NCBI GenBank assembly: GCA_018065305.1
Contig: JAGHTO010000027.1
Coordinates: 1 to 42,770 of the forward strand
Source of the DNA: Candidatus Cacconaster scatequi
GTDB taxonomy: Bacteria; Bacteroidota; Bacteroidia; Bacteroidales; UBA932
DNA length: 42,770 nucleotides
Reading direction: 5' to 3'
Shown: positions 1,522 to 42,764 of the stretch, one piece after another
How positions within the stretch are numbered: position 1 is the first letter of the stretch
How the letters are laid out: the number at the start of each line of letters is the position of its first letter
Translations under genes and position numbers: made by a program
Notes under the pieces: generated by a model
Database searches by the model: none
Told to the model about the DNA's origin: nothing
The model's input: only the letters and a program-made list of their open reading frames with translations

Positions 1522-3222
1522 TTATTTCAATGGGTAGGTGTAAAGCCTTATGCGGTATATGCCGGAGACTTTGAAACGGTCCTGCCATACACTCCAATGC
1601 ATCCTTTGGTAGGACGGTCTGTAGAGCGGGCCGTTGACTTGGAAGACACGGTCGTCCAAATCTTCGTTCGGCATCCTGCCGCGCAGATAAAGCATATTGT
1701 TGTGTGCCGTCTCGTCACCGTTCAGAACGAAAATGGTGTTGCAGCTTCCGTCCTCTTCGTATTGCACTTCCTCGGCATAAGCTATCTTGCACACCAGATT
1801 CGGATTGTCGGATGAGAAGGTGATGTAGGCGCCGACACCGGCCACCAGAAATTCGTCCGGTCCTGTCTGAACTGCCAGCCCGTGTGCTGCTCTTTCTCCC
1901 TTGATATAGTGAACGTGAAAATTGTAATGCCCGAAGGAGAATGACGTGGAGTCATCGGGCTGGTTGACTTCCTTCATCCTCATAAATCCGTGCATGCTGC
2001 CATCACCCTGATGCTCCGAGATGACAGGAAGAAGTTCATTCAGCACTTCATATTCCCCAAGCATATATCTGTCGTTGTAACATTCTTCATATCCGAACGG
2101 TGCATAGCACATGGCATCGTATTCTCCCAGGGCCAGATATGCCGGGCCTGCTTCACGGCTGACTTCCGGGATGAAAAGAGGATTGTCGGCACGCTTGTAA
2201 AGGCCGAAGTATCGGGCACAGTCATTGAGATAGACATCCGGAGACAGCCAGTCCAGGTCCGGTGCCGCCGCCTTATAGACATCCAGCACGCAGGGGCGCG
2301 GCCCGCCGTTGGGGTAGGAGCCGAATCTTGCGTCATCATCGGCAAGCCATACATTGGCGTACATAGGCAGGTCAAATCCTTCCTTGCCTGCTTTTGCAAC
2401 CTCGTTGACATAGGATGCGAAATGCCAGGCCATAAAGATCTGCTTTGCGGCATCTGTATCACCGAATACCTGGCTCCAACTGTCCGAGGTTCTGTTCCCG
2501 TTCTCCTTCCATGCCTTTTCAATCATAGGAGAGAGGGATCCCTTGTGGGTTGAAAGATATTTCATGAGAGAGTCAGGGACCTTGGCTCCGAACGCTCTGA
2601 CTGCCTCCTCGGAATGGTCGATATCCACGAAGGCTCCCACTTCGTTCTCAACCTGAATCAGACATATCATATGGTTGGTGTCGTGAGTGCCTATATAGGA
2701 CATAAGCGTCTTGAAAGCCTTTGCATCGGCTTCAAGGGTTTCCTTGCAGAGAGGGGAAAGTGTCGTGGTATTCTCACCGGCAGAGTTCCGTACCCTGAAG
2801 AAACGTCTGGTATCGGACTTGACCCATAAGGGGGCATAGGATGATTCTCCGTTCTTCCAGCTGCCGAACCACGCGACGGCGGTCCTCAGTCCGTATTGAT
2901 TGGCGAGTGCGATGATATGGTCGATTTCGGAAAAATCGAAACGGCCTTCCTCAGGCTCAAGCTGTTCCCAGCTGACCACCGTTATGACGGAGTTCATACC
3001 CATCTGCTTTGCAGTGCGGTATGAAGATTCAGCCGCAAGAGAGGTCGAGGATGAGGAGTTGTGCATTTCACCGCCAAGCATTATGAACGGTTTTCCGTCC
3101 TGTACGAGCCTTGGGGTGCCGTTGATTGTCTCCACGGCGGCGGCACTGCGGTACGGCTGTGCAAATGTCGCAGTCGCCAGAAATGCGGAAAACAGGAATG
3201 CTAATGTCTTGAGTGCTTTCAT
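1522..3222 (-). CDS. GH35-type beta-galactosidase-like enzyme (DUF5597-type C-terminus)
   Basis: The 566-residue protein has a Sec signal peptide ending near Ala21. A TIM-barrel glycosidase domain covers about residues 28-370. Two catalytic motifs are visible: QVENEVG at 190-196, with Glu194 as the likely acid/base, and IPEVS at 351-355, with Glu353 as the likely nucleophile. This is the clan GH-A layout of GH35/GH42. The C-terminal 180 residues resemble the DUF5597 beta-sandwich that follows many Bacteroidota GH35-like enzymes. The expected role is retaining release of galactose or a related sugar from plant or host glycans in the periplasm. It lies downstream of no recognisable SusC/SusD pair in the window. 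The -7 box sits only three bases from the ATG, as in the GH106-like gene. Confidence 0.8.
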   Translation of the reverse strand: MKALKTLAFLFSAFLATATFAQPYRSAAAVETINGTPRLVQDGKPFIMLGGEMHNSSSSTSLAAESSYRTAKQMGMNSVITVVSWEQLEPEEGRFDFSEIDHIIALANQYGLRTAVAWFGSWKNGESSYAPLWVKSDTRRFFRVRNSAGENTTTLSPLCKETLEADAKAFKTLMSYIGTHDTNHMICLIQVENEVGAFVDIDHSEEAVRAFGAKVPDSLMKYLSTHKGSLSPMIEKAWKENGNRTSDSWSQVFGDTDAAKQIFMAWHFASYVNEVAKAGKEGFDLPMYANVWLADDDARFGSYPNGGPRPCVLDVYKAAAPDLDWLSPDVYLNDCARYFGLYKRADNPLFIPEVSREAGPAYLALGEYDAMCYAPFGYEECYNDRYMLGEYEVLNELLPVISEHQGDGSMHGFMRMKEVNQPDDSTSFSFGHYNFHVHYIKGERAAHGLAVQTGPDEFLVAGVGAYITFSSDNPNLVCKIAYAEEVQYEEDGSCNTIFVLNGDETAHNNMLYLRGRMPNEDLDDRVFQVNGPLYRPSYQRMHWSVWQDRFKVSGIYRIRLYTYPLK

Positions 3223-3225
3223 ATC

Positions 3226-3265
3226 ACAAACTTACATAAAATAGCGGGATTTTATGTAAGTTTGC
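3226..3265. promoter_or_regulatory. Perfect 16-bp inverted repeat carrying two divergent -7 boxes
   Basis: CAAACTTACATAAAAT at 3227-3242 is repeated exactly inverted at 3249-3264, with the spacer AGCGGG. Each arm contains TAAGTTTG, which matches TAnnTTTG: one reads left into the GH35-like gene (start 3222) and one right into the lipoprotein gene (start 3299). A single dimeric regulator bound here would cover both promoters. The arms could also simply form a hairpin. Confidence 0.6.
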
Positions 3266-3670: not shown

Positions 3671-3753
3671 GGCGGGATGGTGAAGGGCAGTTTTCAATCC
3701 CGTGGGGCAGAATTTTGCCGCGAATGGCTGGCAAAGGGCCGATTTTAATCCCG
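3671..3753 (+). repeat. REP pair (units a and b) abutting the RAYT stop codon
   Basis: Unit a (3671-3702) runs GGCGGGATGG...TTTTCAATCCCG, and unit b (3719-3753) runs CGCGAATGGCTGGC...TTTTAATCCCGG. They lie in direct orientation and are joined by a GGGGCAGAATTTTGC linker. The GGGAT/ATCCC ends pair as a palindrome. Unit b ends one base before the RAYT stop codon. The a-linker-b composite recurs inverted at 8521-8606 with about five mismatches over 81 bases. Confidence 0.75.
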
Positions 3754-3754
3754 G

Positions 3755-4675
3755 TCAGTGTGGGAATACGGAAGAGAGAGTCTCGATGGGGATTTTCAGC
3801 AGGCGGGAGATTTGCTTGTTACCTGCATTGTATTCATAGTGGAGGGCCTTCGCGATGGACATCTTCTCCTCCGGTTTCAATTCCGAAGAATTCCGACCTC
3901 CATACTCCTTTCTGCATATCAATGCAATGATGTCAAACAAGTCATAATCCGTGTAGAAGATATTTTCTCCGATAAGTTTGGCTATTTCTTTCTGCGACTC
4001 GATATTCTTGGAAATCAGATAGAAGTATTGGCGGTTATTGATGAAAATGGATTCTGCCTCCTGGACCCTGCAATAGCAAAGAGGCGAAATATATCCATCC
4101 ATAACGATGATATCTCTCACATTGTCCAGACGATGGCTTCTGGTCAAAGTCCTTTTCTCCTCCTGTGTTGCAGCATGTCCGCATTGAGTGTACCGGAGTT
4201 TCGCCTCGTTGTTGAAAAAATATCTGTTGGCACCCCACCTGTACGAAAAGGGATTTTCATTCGGGTTGACAATAGTTCCGTTCCTGTTGGTGTAGGCAAT
4301 TACGTTCCTAAAATTGTTTAGGCTATCGATAGGATGTAGTTTAGGAATCATCTTCAAAATGACGTCCCTGAACCTTTTCAACTCCGGATGAAAGGCCAAC
4401 TTTTTGACAAGTGCCATTGCAAAAGCCCTCGCCTCGGATTCCTGCCCGGCAACGACAAGATGGAAGTGGTTAACCATAATCTCAAACGTGAATATCTTGA
4501 TTTCCGGAAACACAAAGGCAACGAATGCGACCATATTCATTGCAATCTTCATCTCCTGTTCTCCGTGGAATATCACAGGCAGATTTTCCTGTGTGCAAAC
4601 GTGGAAGCAACTTCCTGCTTCCCGGAATCTGAACTGGCACATATTCTCCAGCATCGCAAAATCTCTCTTCTCCAT
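3755..4675 (-). CDS. REP-associated tyrosine transposase (RAYT, Y1/HUH IS200-like)
   Basis: The open frame extends to 4738, but the ATG at 4675 (MEKRDFAMLENMC) is the more natural start, giving 306 residues. The HUH motif is visible as MVNHFHLVVAG, corresponding to His91 and His93 of the longer frame. A tyrosine in VIAYTNRNG (Tyr149 of the longer frame) is the likely nucleophile. These define the Y1 family that nicks single-stranded DNA at hairpins. The C-terminus carries an HTH-like tail (EEKMSIAKALHYEYNAGNKQ...), as expected for hairpin recognition. Single-copy RAYTs are thought to be domesticated enzymes that spread REP sequences. REP units lie immediately on both sides (3671-3753 and 4788-4827), which strongly supports the call. 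The downstream REP starts one base after the stop codon. Confidence 0.8.
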   Translation of the reverse strand: MEKRDFAMLENMCQFRFREAGSCFHVCTQENLPVIFHGEQEMKIAMNMVAFVAFVFPEIKIFTFEIMVNHFHLVVAGQESEARAFAMALVKKLAFHPELKRFRDVILKMIPKLHPIDSLNNFRNVIAYTNRNGTIVNPNENPFSYRWGANRYFFNNEAKLRYTQCGHAATQEEKRTLTRSHRLDNVRDIIVMDGYISPLCYCRVQEAESIFINNRQYFYLISKNIESQKEIAKLIGENIFYTDYDLFDIIALICRKEYGGRNSSELKPEEKMSIAKALHYEYNAGNKQISRLLKIPIETLSSVFPH

Positions 4676-4787
4676 AATGTACCGTTTTGAGTGTGAATAT
4701 AGAGAGAATCCCCTGAAACGATATGTCTGAAACGTCAAAATTTTCGAGGAAAAGATGGCTATGGGATTTTTTATCGGGAATCATTGT

Positions 4788-4827
4788 CGTGGCGGGATGA
4801 GGAAAGCCTCTTTTCAATCCCGCCACG
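4788..4827 (+). repeat. REP unit upstream of RAYT (11-bp perfect hairpin)
   Basis: CGTGGCGGGAT at 4788-4798 pairs perfectly with ATCCCGCCACG at 4817-4827; the interior carries GGAAAGCCTCTTTTCA as in the other units. Together with 3671-3753 it brackets the RAYT gene. The rest of the gap 4739-4919 shows nothing further. Confidence 0.75.
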
Positions 4828-4919
4828 GTTGCGTAATCGTCACCTTTTGCCGGATTGTCTTGTTATATATGTGAACCGGTTCGGAAAGAATCAAAAACAT
4901 AATATAACTTTACATCACT

Positions 4920-8520: not shown

Positions 8521-8660
8521 GTCGGGATCGAAATCGGCCTTTTGCCAGCCATTCGCGGCAAAATTCTGCCCCGCGGGATTGAAAACCGCCCTTCACCATC
8601 CCGCCACGACGAAAAACCCCGCCACGGGATTGAAAACAGCCTTTCGCCAGCCCGCCACGA
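8521..8660 (-). repeat. Array of three REP units downstream of the GH43-like gene
   Basis: On the minus strand three units lie in tandem: 8659-8622, 8608-8572 and 8556-8521. Each ends in ...(T)TTTC(A/G)ATCCCG. The last two, with their linker, repeat the 3671-3753 composite with about five mismatches in 81 bases, in opposite orientation. The array begins 27 bases after the stop of the GH43-like gene and fills most of the gap 8494-8690. Confidence 0.75.
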
Positions 8661-8690
8661 CAAAAATCCCCTCACGGCACAAGGTGACGG

Positions 8691-8724: not shown

Positions 8725-8730
8725 CTCGCG

Positions 8731-8804
8731 TGGTCCCAGCAGGGCATGATCCTGCGACCCCCTGATTATGAGTCAGATGCTCTAACCAACTGAGCTATGG
8801 GACC
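8731..8804 (-). tRNA. tRNA with anticodon CAU (elongator Met or Ile2)
   Basis: The 74-nt gene folds as a full cloverleaf. Acceptor GGTCCCA pairs with TGGGACC, with discriminator A and no encoded CCA. The D arm is GCTC/GAGC, the anticodon arm TCTGA-CTCATAA-TCAGG carries CAT, and the T stem is GCAGG/CCTGC. The G1-C72 pair excludes initiator tRNA. The T loop reads ATCATGC instead of the near-universal TTCRANY. Elongator Met is more likely than lysidine-modified Ile2, but the sequence alone does not decide. Confidence 0.85.
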
Positions 8805-17073: not shown

Positions 17074-17161
17074 GTCATTCCTTGGCAATATCATTCGATA
17101 TGCGCCTGAAATCAGAAAAAATCGGGCCAAACCCCGCGCGACCTTCGGCCTTGAACCTGCT

Positions 17162-17244
17162 GACGGGATCGAAAATGGCGGTTTATCAGCCGCGAACGAT
17201 GAAATTTTGCACGGATGGATGGCAAAAGGCCTGTTTCAATCCCG
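17162..17244. repeat. Inverted pair of REP units (REPIN)
   Basis: Two REP units face each other: 17162-17196, reading GACGGGATCGAAAATGGCGG inward, and 17211-17244, ending GGCCTGTTTCAATCCCG. They are joined by a spacer with AAATTTTGC, as in the other composites. The pair lies in the gap between rsgA and dnaE. It is the only inverted pair seen; the other units in the window are single or direct. Confidence 0.65.
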
Positions 17245-17268
17245 AAAGGCGTATTTGCGGACAGACCG

Positions 17269-17285
17269 GCGCAGATTGTCTGCGC
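17269..17285. repeat. Perfect 7-bp hairpin GCGCAGA-TTG-TCTGCGC
   Basis: The stem is perfect with a three-base loop and lies between the REPIN and the larger inverted-repeat element. It has no T tail on either strand, so it is not a typical terminator. Confidence 0.4.
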
Positions 17286-17324
17286 ACGTAGTACACGCCG
17301 ACCTGGACAAATGGTAGCCTACAA

Positions 17325-17520
17325 GGCTGGGCTGACATTGCGACCGGACAGCGTCCATTCTTTGTTTTGGGGCTCCGCCCCCTGCCCCGCGGCTCCTTGC
17401 TCCAGTATGTTGCTTGCGCAACATACCCGCACCGCCGGGCCGCTGATGCGGCCTTAATAAGTCTGCGTCAAACTTGCTGGCTGCGGCTGAGTCTGTCCTT
17501 ATCGCAATGTCCGCCCAGCC
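17325..17520. repeat. Hairpin-string element closed by long inverted repeats
   Basis: Left arm 17325-17351 (GGCTGGGCTGACATTGCGAC...GGACAG) pairs with right arm 17493-17520, with only a few mismatches. Inside are three perfect hairpins: GGGGC/GCCCC at 17369-17381, TATGTTGC/GCAACATA at 17406-17425 and GGCCGC/GCGGCC at 17438-17453. No open frame of note is present. It ends five bases from the dnaE stop. It could be a MITE-like element, a structured RNA or a decayed insertion. Its plan resembles the 25.55 kb element although the sequence differs. Confidence 0.6.
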
Positions 17521-25552: not shown

Positions 25553-25739
25553 GTCGGATTGTCTGTCGCTTGAAAGGACCTAAGCGTCCGGCGGGCTAAA
25601 GCCCTGCTGCTCGGGCCGCAAGCATCAAAATGCTTGCTGTAAACACCCTCGCGACCCGCGCTTGATAGCGGGAGGGGCCCAGCGTCAGCTGGGAGGGATG
25701 AGCGAAGCGAAGTCCTTACCAAGCGACAGACAATCCGAC
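25553..25739. repeat. Hairpin-string repeat, copy 1, with 20-bp terminal inverted repeats
   Basis: GTCGGATTGTCTGTCGCTTG at 25553-25572 is repeated exactly inverted at 25720-25739, and the pairing continues with AAGGAC/GTCCTT. Inside are four hairpins: GGGC/GCCC (25593-25604), GCAAGCAT/ATGCTTGC (25618-25637), CCCGC/GCGGG (25655-25672) and CCCAGC/GCTGGG (25678-25693). Bases 25573-25679 match 42616-42722 at 106 of 107 positions. The element fills the gap between the ThiL-like gene and ispE; no coding sequence is supported in it. Confidence 0.75.
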
Positions 25740-42579: not shown

Positions 42580-42615
42580 TATTTTTGTTATTTTTTGTGG
42601 AGTATCTGTCAATAA

Positions 42616-42764
42616 AAAGGACCTAAGCGTCCGGCGGGCTAAAGCCCTGCTGCTCGGGCCGCAAGCATCAAAATGCTTGCTGTAAACACCCTCGCGACCC
42701 GCGCTTAATAGCGGGAGGGGCCTACAAGCGTAGCGCAGTGGGAGGGTGAGCGAAGCGAAGTCCG
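42616..42764. repeat. Hairpin-string repeat, copy 2, beyond the pilus promoter
   Basis: Bases 42616-42722 match 25573-25679 at 106 of 107 positions, including the GGGC/GCCC, GCAAGCAT/ATGCTTGC and CCCGC/GCGGG hairpins. After that the copies differ (CTACAAGCGTAGCGCAG versus CCAGCGTCAGCTG) and then share GGGAGGG-TGAGCGAAGCGAAGTCC. The outer 20-bp inverted repeats of copy 1 are missing, so the mobile or transcribed unit is the inner part. The window ends six bases after the element. Confidence 0.7.

Follow-up and report, generated by a model that had tools for sequence, protein, structure and literature searches.

We analyzed a stretch of 42,770 nucleotides (nt) from Candidatus Cacconaster scatequi (contig JAGHTO010000027.1), hereafter the window, for a gene of the repetitive extragenic palindrome (REP)-associated tyrosine transposase (RAYT) type and for the palindromes around it (Table 1). 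The original prediction described a RAYT bracketed by its own REP units, with five further units within 14 kb. The results show units on both sides of the gene at the distances given in Table 1, and the five further units belong to the array near the tRNA-Met gene (three units) and to the inverted doublet (two units); the predicted coordinates and counts were right.

Table 1. Features of the RAYT locus and of the palindromes in the window.
Feature	Position	Strand	Remark
RAYT-type HUH/Y1 transposase gene, P0001	3755..4675	-	306 aa
C-terminal helical part of P0001, residues about 243-303, perhaps helix-turn-helix (HTH)	3767..3949	-	four helices in predicted model
REP unit A, with a partly decayed right arm	3722..3755	-	one base from RAYT stop codon; direct reading and covariance model
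REP unit B, direct doublet with A	3671..3704	-	51 nt from unit A; direct reading, repeat search, and covariance model
REP unit upstream of RAYT start	4791..4824	-	about 115 nt from start (4675); DNA fold z -3.45
Three-unit REP array near tRNA-Met gene, units 51 nt apart	8521..8656	+	8521-8554, 8572-8605, 8623-8656
Inverted REP doublet, REPIN-like	17161..17246	-	one of 10 aligned genome copies
15-nt sequence at edge of RAYT/REP block	4838..4852	+	one copy at the joined site of genome G003
Inverted second copy of the 15-nt sequence, edge of REP array	8675..8689	-	one base different

The protein P0001 carries the HFH motif at residues 70-72 (nt 4460-4468) and a tyrosine at residue 128 (nt 4292-4294), and H70, H72, and Y128 were invariant across 77 aligned sequences. 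Its predicted Y1 fold is nearest to that of a known RAYT, the E. coli TnpA-REP (structure 4er8). Fold and residues agree and support the proposed assignment as a RAYT-type HUH/Y1 protein, for which cleavage activity is presumed. P0001 had no match to Pfam Y1_Tnp (PF01797) and no convincing match to any family model; in group A1, 8 of 17 members matched PF01797 (best E 0.019). PADLOC matches at E 0.0038 and 0.023 and a PHROGs match at E 0.77 were taken as chance. Among the HTH families, the C-terminal part matched HTH_SB alone and weakly (E 0.17), and in 45 relatives weak HTH matches were to Sigma70_r4_2 (3/45, best E 0.0023). The C-terminal profile against the PDB gave a best E of 0.45, which is not meaningful, and Pfam gave DUF4093 in one relative (E 0.0016) plus other scattered matches, which were set aside.

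Both direct arrays in the window place neighboring units 51 nt apart, and the repeat search recovered 8523-8605 as an inverted copy of 3671-3753 (94% over 83 nt). At one mismatch, TTTNAATCCCG matched the window 10 times against 3.5 expected, a number reached in 1 of 100 shuffles. Six pieces folded as DNA gave z values from -1.9 to -3.8 against shuffles.

The palindromes were also expected in excess elsewhere in the genome, and this was the case. In the 1.90-Mb genome, TTTCAATCCCG matched 12 times, whereas the reversed control gave no match. Eight of the 12 matches were inside REP units, two of them being one palindrome of contig C23 read on both strands; in the remaining four, no second arm was seen. 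A 34-nt covariance model (R1), built from nine units of the genome and two of locus L069, located at least 16 distinct places at E <= 0.01, nine being the training units and seven new. This is a lower bound because 150 of 1902 candidates were scored, with 24 rows at E <= 1. Nine places lie outside the window and comprise seven inverted doublets, one single unit (C26), and one direct doublet (C23); thus, the inverted doublet is the dispersed form, and the direct order is found beside the RAYT. Ten doublet copies, namely the seven outside doublets, the window doublet, and two weaker places (C44 and C52), were aligned at about 86 nt each with a mean column identity of 80%. When 11 outside-window places were compared with ATG frames of at least 100 aa, taken as open frames and not as established genes, four had no overlap, four were wholly inside, and three were at an edge.

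We then considered the flanks of related genes. The sample held 134 loci, 54 from the genus and 80 named ones (the best 80 of 225), with several identical records. The register set of 50 loci was chosen by protein alone; loci with less than 250 nt on either side, with N runs, or with at least 60% identity to a kept locus were dropped. Within flanks of 400 nt, 30 of the 50 loci showed a lag of 51 nt, against 4/50 in a control at 1000-1400 nt, where loci near contig ends offer less sequence, and 5/50 in the open reading frame (ORF). With lags of 50-52, the number rose to 37, whereas the other three-lag bins, excluding those near 51, 102, and 153, averaged 4.4 with a maximum of 15. By kinship, these lags were found in 31 of 38 loci with at least 33% identity to P0001 and in 6 of the remaining 12. 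Among 29 PF01797-positive Y1 loci of the genus, a set with no redundancy filter and including a few distant P0001 matches, lag 51 occurred in three; one more locus had no usable frame. A first scan with 600-nt flanks was rejected: it gave lag 51 in 21/34, but also in 10/34 of its control, drawn from 700-1500 nt away and from the ORF, because arrays extend that far and ORFs favor multiples of three. In three loci with related Y1 proteins (L042, L046, and L019), repeats at lags of 84 and 72, or else a flank repeat that is long and inverted, take the place of the 51-nt register.

Ordinary slippage or recombination could have lengthened the arrays, with the register passed down from one ancestor and not measured by the protein. 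Long arrays of similar units in L034, L056, and L063 fit such growth, as does a quick tree on which the register falls mostly in the clade of the window (35 of its 42 rows) and in one small group that includes L044, L047, and L171; the tree requires at least nine register changes, with some long branches unsure. We regard this account as very improbable, since the spacing was kept though arms, loops, and spacers changed, and since doublets distant from any RAYT also keep about 51 nt.

The arms follow protein divergence. Sharing was counted as a common 7-nt palindrome arm in 106 of the 134 loci, restricted to palindrome-bearing loci after duplicate removal. An arm was shared by 2/5 protein pairs at 90-100% identity, 3/5 at 80-90%, and 22/42 at 70-80%; the numbers were 7/118 at 60-70%, 11/287 at 50-60%, 34/1597 at 40-50%, 21/1936 at 30-40%, 8/1008 at 20-30%, and 0/5 below. 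Palindromes are therefore rarely common to pairs under 70% identity, while the spacing persists, and close relatives share arms because their flanks share descent. Even within the genome, the homologue loci L016, L017, and L018 have flanking palindromes that differ from those of P0001. A GGC/GCC at the palindrome center (13/40 within seven positions) was too weak to claim.

Across 40 genomes, P0001 homologues were present in 30, the best outside the own genome (G000) being 45% identical. The ten doublets were used to build a doublet model (R2), with which 112 candidates were scored in each of the 40 genomes. It located at least 13 places in the own genome at E <= 1e-5, including the 10 training doublets, and at least seven in G003 at E <= 0.1; three genomes had one marginal row each, and 35 had none, so that strong doublets were limited to 2 of the 40 genomes. 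A second family of palindromes, CATCCTCA-N-TGAGGATG, was present in 15/40 genomes with zero matches in the reversed control. Its counts were 6, 14, 8, 2, 40, and 6 in six genomes that were seen to have a RAYT with this palindrome, against 1-8 each in 9 of the 34 others (one-sided Mann-Whitney p 2.5e-5); since flanks were fetched for part of the homologues, a cognate RAYT may have gone unseen in some of the 34. This family tracks its RAYT better than the P0001 doublets do. The proposal that REP number follows the RAYT was only partly supported: TTTCAATCCCG is commonest in the genome of the window, whereas the doublets of G003, whose assembly shows no orthologue, are an exception to strict tracking. 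G040, the genome of L069, has the RAYT and only two doublet places; its contigs C34 and C40 are 96-98% identical to the window, against 69% in another G040 stretch, and they may be mis-binned, so its count was not weighed against tracking.

The palindromes might instead serve the C-terminal domain as arrays of double-stranded operators, for self-control or DNA organization, with the HUH activity secondary. A spacing of about 51 nt equals five helical turns and would set all sites on one face, and it is common despite changing palindrome length and sequence. Additionally, the CATCCTCA family, with 8-nt arms and a 14-nt middle, looks more like a dimer site than a tight hairpin; many loci have the nearest upstream unit about 80 to 150 nt before the start; and the C-terminal part is helical in the predicted model. 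We judge operator arrays unlikely, given that the HUH and tyrosine residues are invariant, that dispersed doublets with conserved inner sequence resemble copied elements, and that the C-terminal profile searches lacked a clear HTH family match.

Genome G003 is 86-96% identical to the window in the RAYT neighborhood. There, the sequence at window 8675, next to the tRNA terminator, runs straight into 4838 with a single 15-nt copy, and the RAYT and REP units are absent. G003 also lacks window 17194-17515, from the point where the doublet's first REP ends, and its lipocalin-like gene adjoins a REP doublet, whereas the corresponding C26 of the own genome has a single REP and no lipocalin-like gene. 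G001 and G002 have different neighbors at the RAYT-block site. These genomes were apparently assembled from metagenomes, and repeats in such assemblies may be misleading. Pieces of window about 17330-17515 are multicopy in G003, G001, and G040.

The joined site in G003 would suit an insertion sequence (IS)-like element in which the RAYT and its arrays move whole with the palindromes as ends, and so would the flank repeats: of 36 loci with a clear repeat, 30 have it in one and the same order on the two sides of the gene. On the other hand, loss of the block in G003 is equally possible, and an inversion is also required. The own genome gave five protein matches, P0001 itself and four at 53, 50, 39, and 24% identity (the 39% homologue being partial, at a contig end); none is a recent copy, and near-identical copies as in IS200/IS605 were not found. 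Movement of the whole block is, in our estimate, quite unlikely.

In comparison with known systems, cited here from passages of the papers, P0001 resembles the E. coli TnpA-REP/RAYT (4er8; PMC8266576, PMC3116915) in predicted fold, HUH and tyrosine residues, own palindromes bracketing the gene, and dispersed inverted doublets. It differs in sequence (9% identity in the structural alignment) and length (306 aa vs 165 aa), and unlike E. coli REPs, the palindromes of its group lack the GT[AG]G foot. We counted 34 REPs in 208 kb of E. coli, and all 20 neighbor pairs were opposite in direction, at 38-45 or 51-56 nt; the average spacing is similar, whereas the arrangement beside the gene is mostly direct in the P0001 group. 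Two P. fluorescens groups have spacings of 71 and 110 bp (PMC3116915). PF01797 fits TnpA-Y1 class 2 only partly (PMC6006769). Subclass 2.6, mostly from Bacteroidetes, is alike in that its flanking structures are atypical, have no GT[AG]G, and recur elsewhere in the genome, but its median HuH-Y distance is 82, against 58 from H70 or 56 from H72 in P0001; usual medians are 58-67 (PMC6006769). Subclass 2.1.2/TIRYT (PMC6006769, PMC3733652) is alike in a HuH-Y distance in or near 58-67 and in a long C-terminal extension, HTH-like on weak evidence here; with regard to the C-terminal DnaA_C or HTH domain of that subclass, P0001 gave only weak HTH matches. For subclass 2.1, the paper found no REP-like sequences (PMC6006769), whereas the palindromes of P0001 are plain on both sides. 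By the text descriptions of the subclasses, as distinct from their profiles, the P0001 group plausibly lies outside them. A new REP/RAYT group, as was suggested, is accordingly plausible, also by the lack of a convincing family-model match. The full REP/RAYT signature claimed for the locus holds for the flanking and dispersed palindromes, but these are non-canonical REPs without the foot, and the register of about 51 nt was not part of that claim.

We consider it likely that P0001 is a RAYT-like Bacteroidales transposase that recognizes its own palindromes and copies or moves their doublets, neighboring palindromes being about 51 nt apart. This reading draws on the predicted fold, the invariant catalytic residues, the two-sided palindromes, the dispersed doublets, the common spacing, and the change of palindromes with divergence; from these we infer cleavage, mobilization, and a ruler as a protein property, the mobilization of doublets by analogy with systems of the known kind. 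The RAYT would recognize hairpins that its palindromes form in single-stranded DNA, and it would copy or move doublets (REPINs, that is, paired REPs) to other sites at a low rate. Diverged RAYTs would have their own arms, and neighboring palindromes would keep a distance of about 51 nt, the simplest reason being that one assembly engages two of them at a fixed separation.

Several observations weigh against this reading. The palindrome copy number is small, and the own genome, with 12 TTTCAATCCCG matches against 0-8 in the other 39, is only moderately richer. No doublet was caught moving into a proven empty site. The loops are large, and the hairpins therefore weak. The GT[AG]G foot is not enriched (8/278 palindromes, 2.9%, vs 5.4% at random places). 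The register is missing in 13/50 loci, and 14/50 have no clear shared flank repeat. Units beside the RAYT are mostly direct, unlike REPINs: among pairs 50-52 nt apart, orientable in 25 loci, direct order led in 17 and inverted order in 3, with 8 ties (loci with equal counts were entered twice). Finally, G003 (88% complete, 160 contigs) has seven doublet places and no P0001 orthologue in the assembly.

What is new is the conserved register over unrelated palindromes, which hints that the protein measures distance. In the RAYT/REP literature, as far as titles, abstract openings, and passages go and with subscription papers thinly covered, such a spacing is unreported. Tentatively, the assembly may be a molecular ruler that holds two palindromes about 51 nt apart, the spacing being under lasting selection while the arms, as an address, are rewritten in each lineage; we rate this as possible rather than probable. 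The ruler could stem from the protein acting on single-stranded DNA, from helical phasing in double-stranded DNA, or from inheritance. If address and ruler are separate, the enzymes form a natural series that shares one geometry but varies in the palindromes targeted. The finding bears on how RAYTs recognize REPs and why REPs are paired. Dozens of diverged proteins with different palindromes and one spacing offer a natural experiment on the residues that set palindrome specificity, and the common spacing makes a fixed-distance requirement directly testable. As far as the published subclasses can be compared by their text, REP/RAYT systems in gut Bacteroidales are extended beyond them.

Other repeats were observed in the window. 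Part of the tRNA-Met gene near the REP array (8730-8804) is repeated at 1340-1403, and a part of it, cut short, also lies beside the RAYT of L069 at about 1094-1143. A direct repeat of 124 nt with 94% identity joins 25556-25679 and 42599-42722; a further copy lies near a REPIN in contig C119 of G003, which makes it another dispersed repeat. The stretches 1251-1336 and 3145-3230 are 85% identical repeats.
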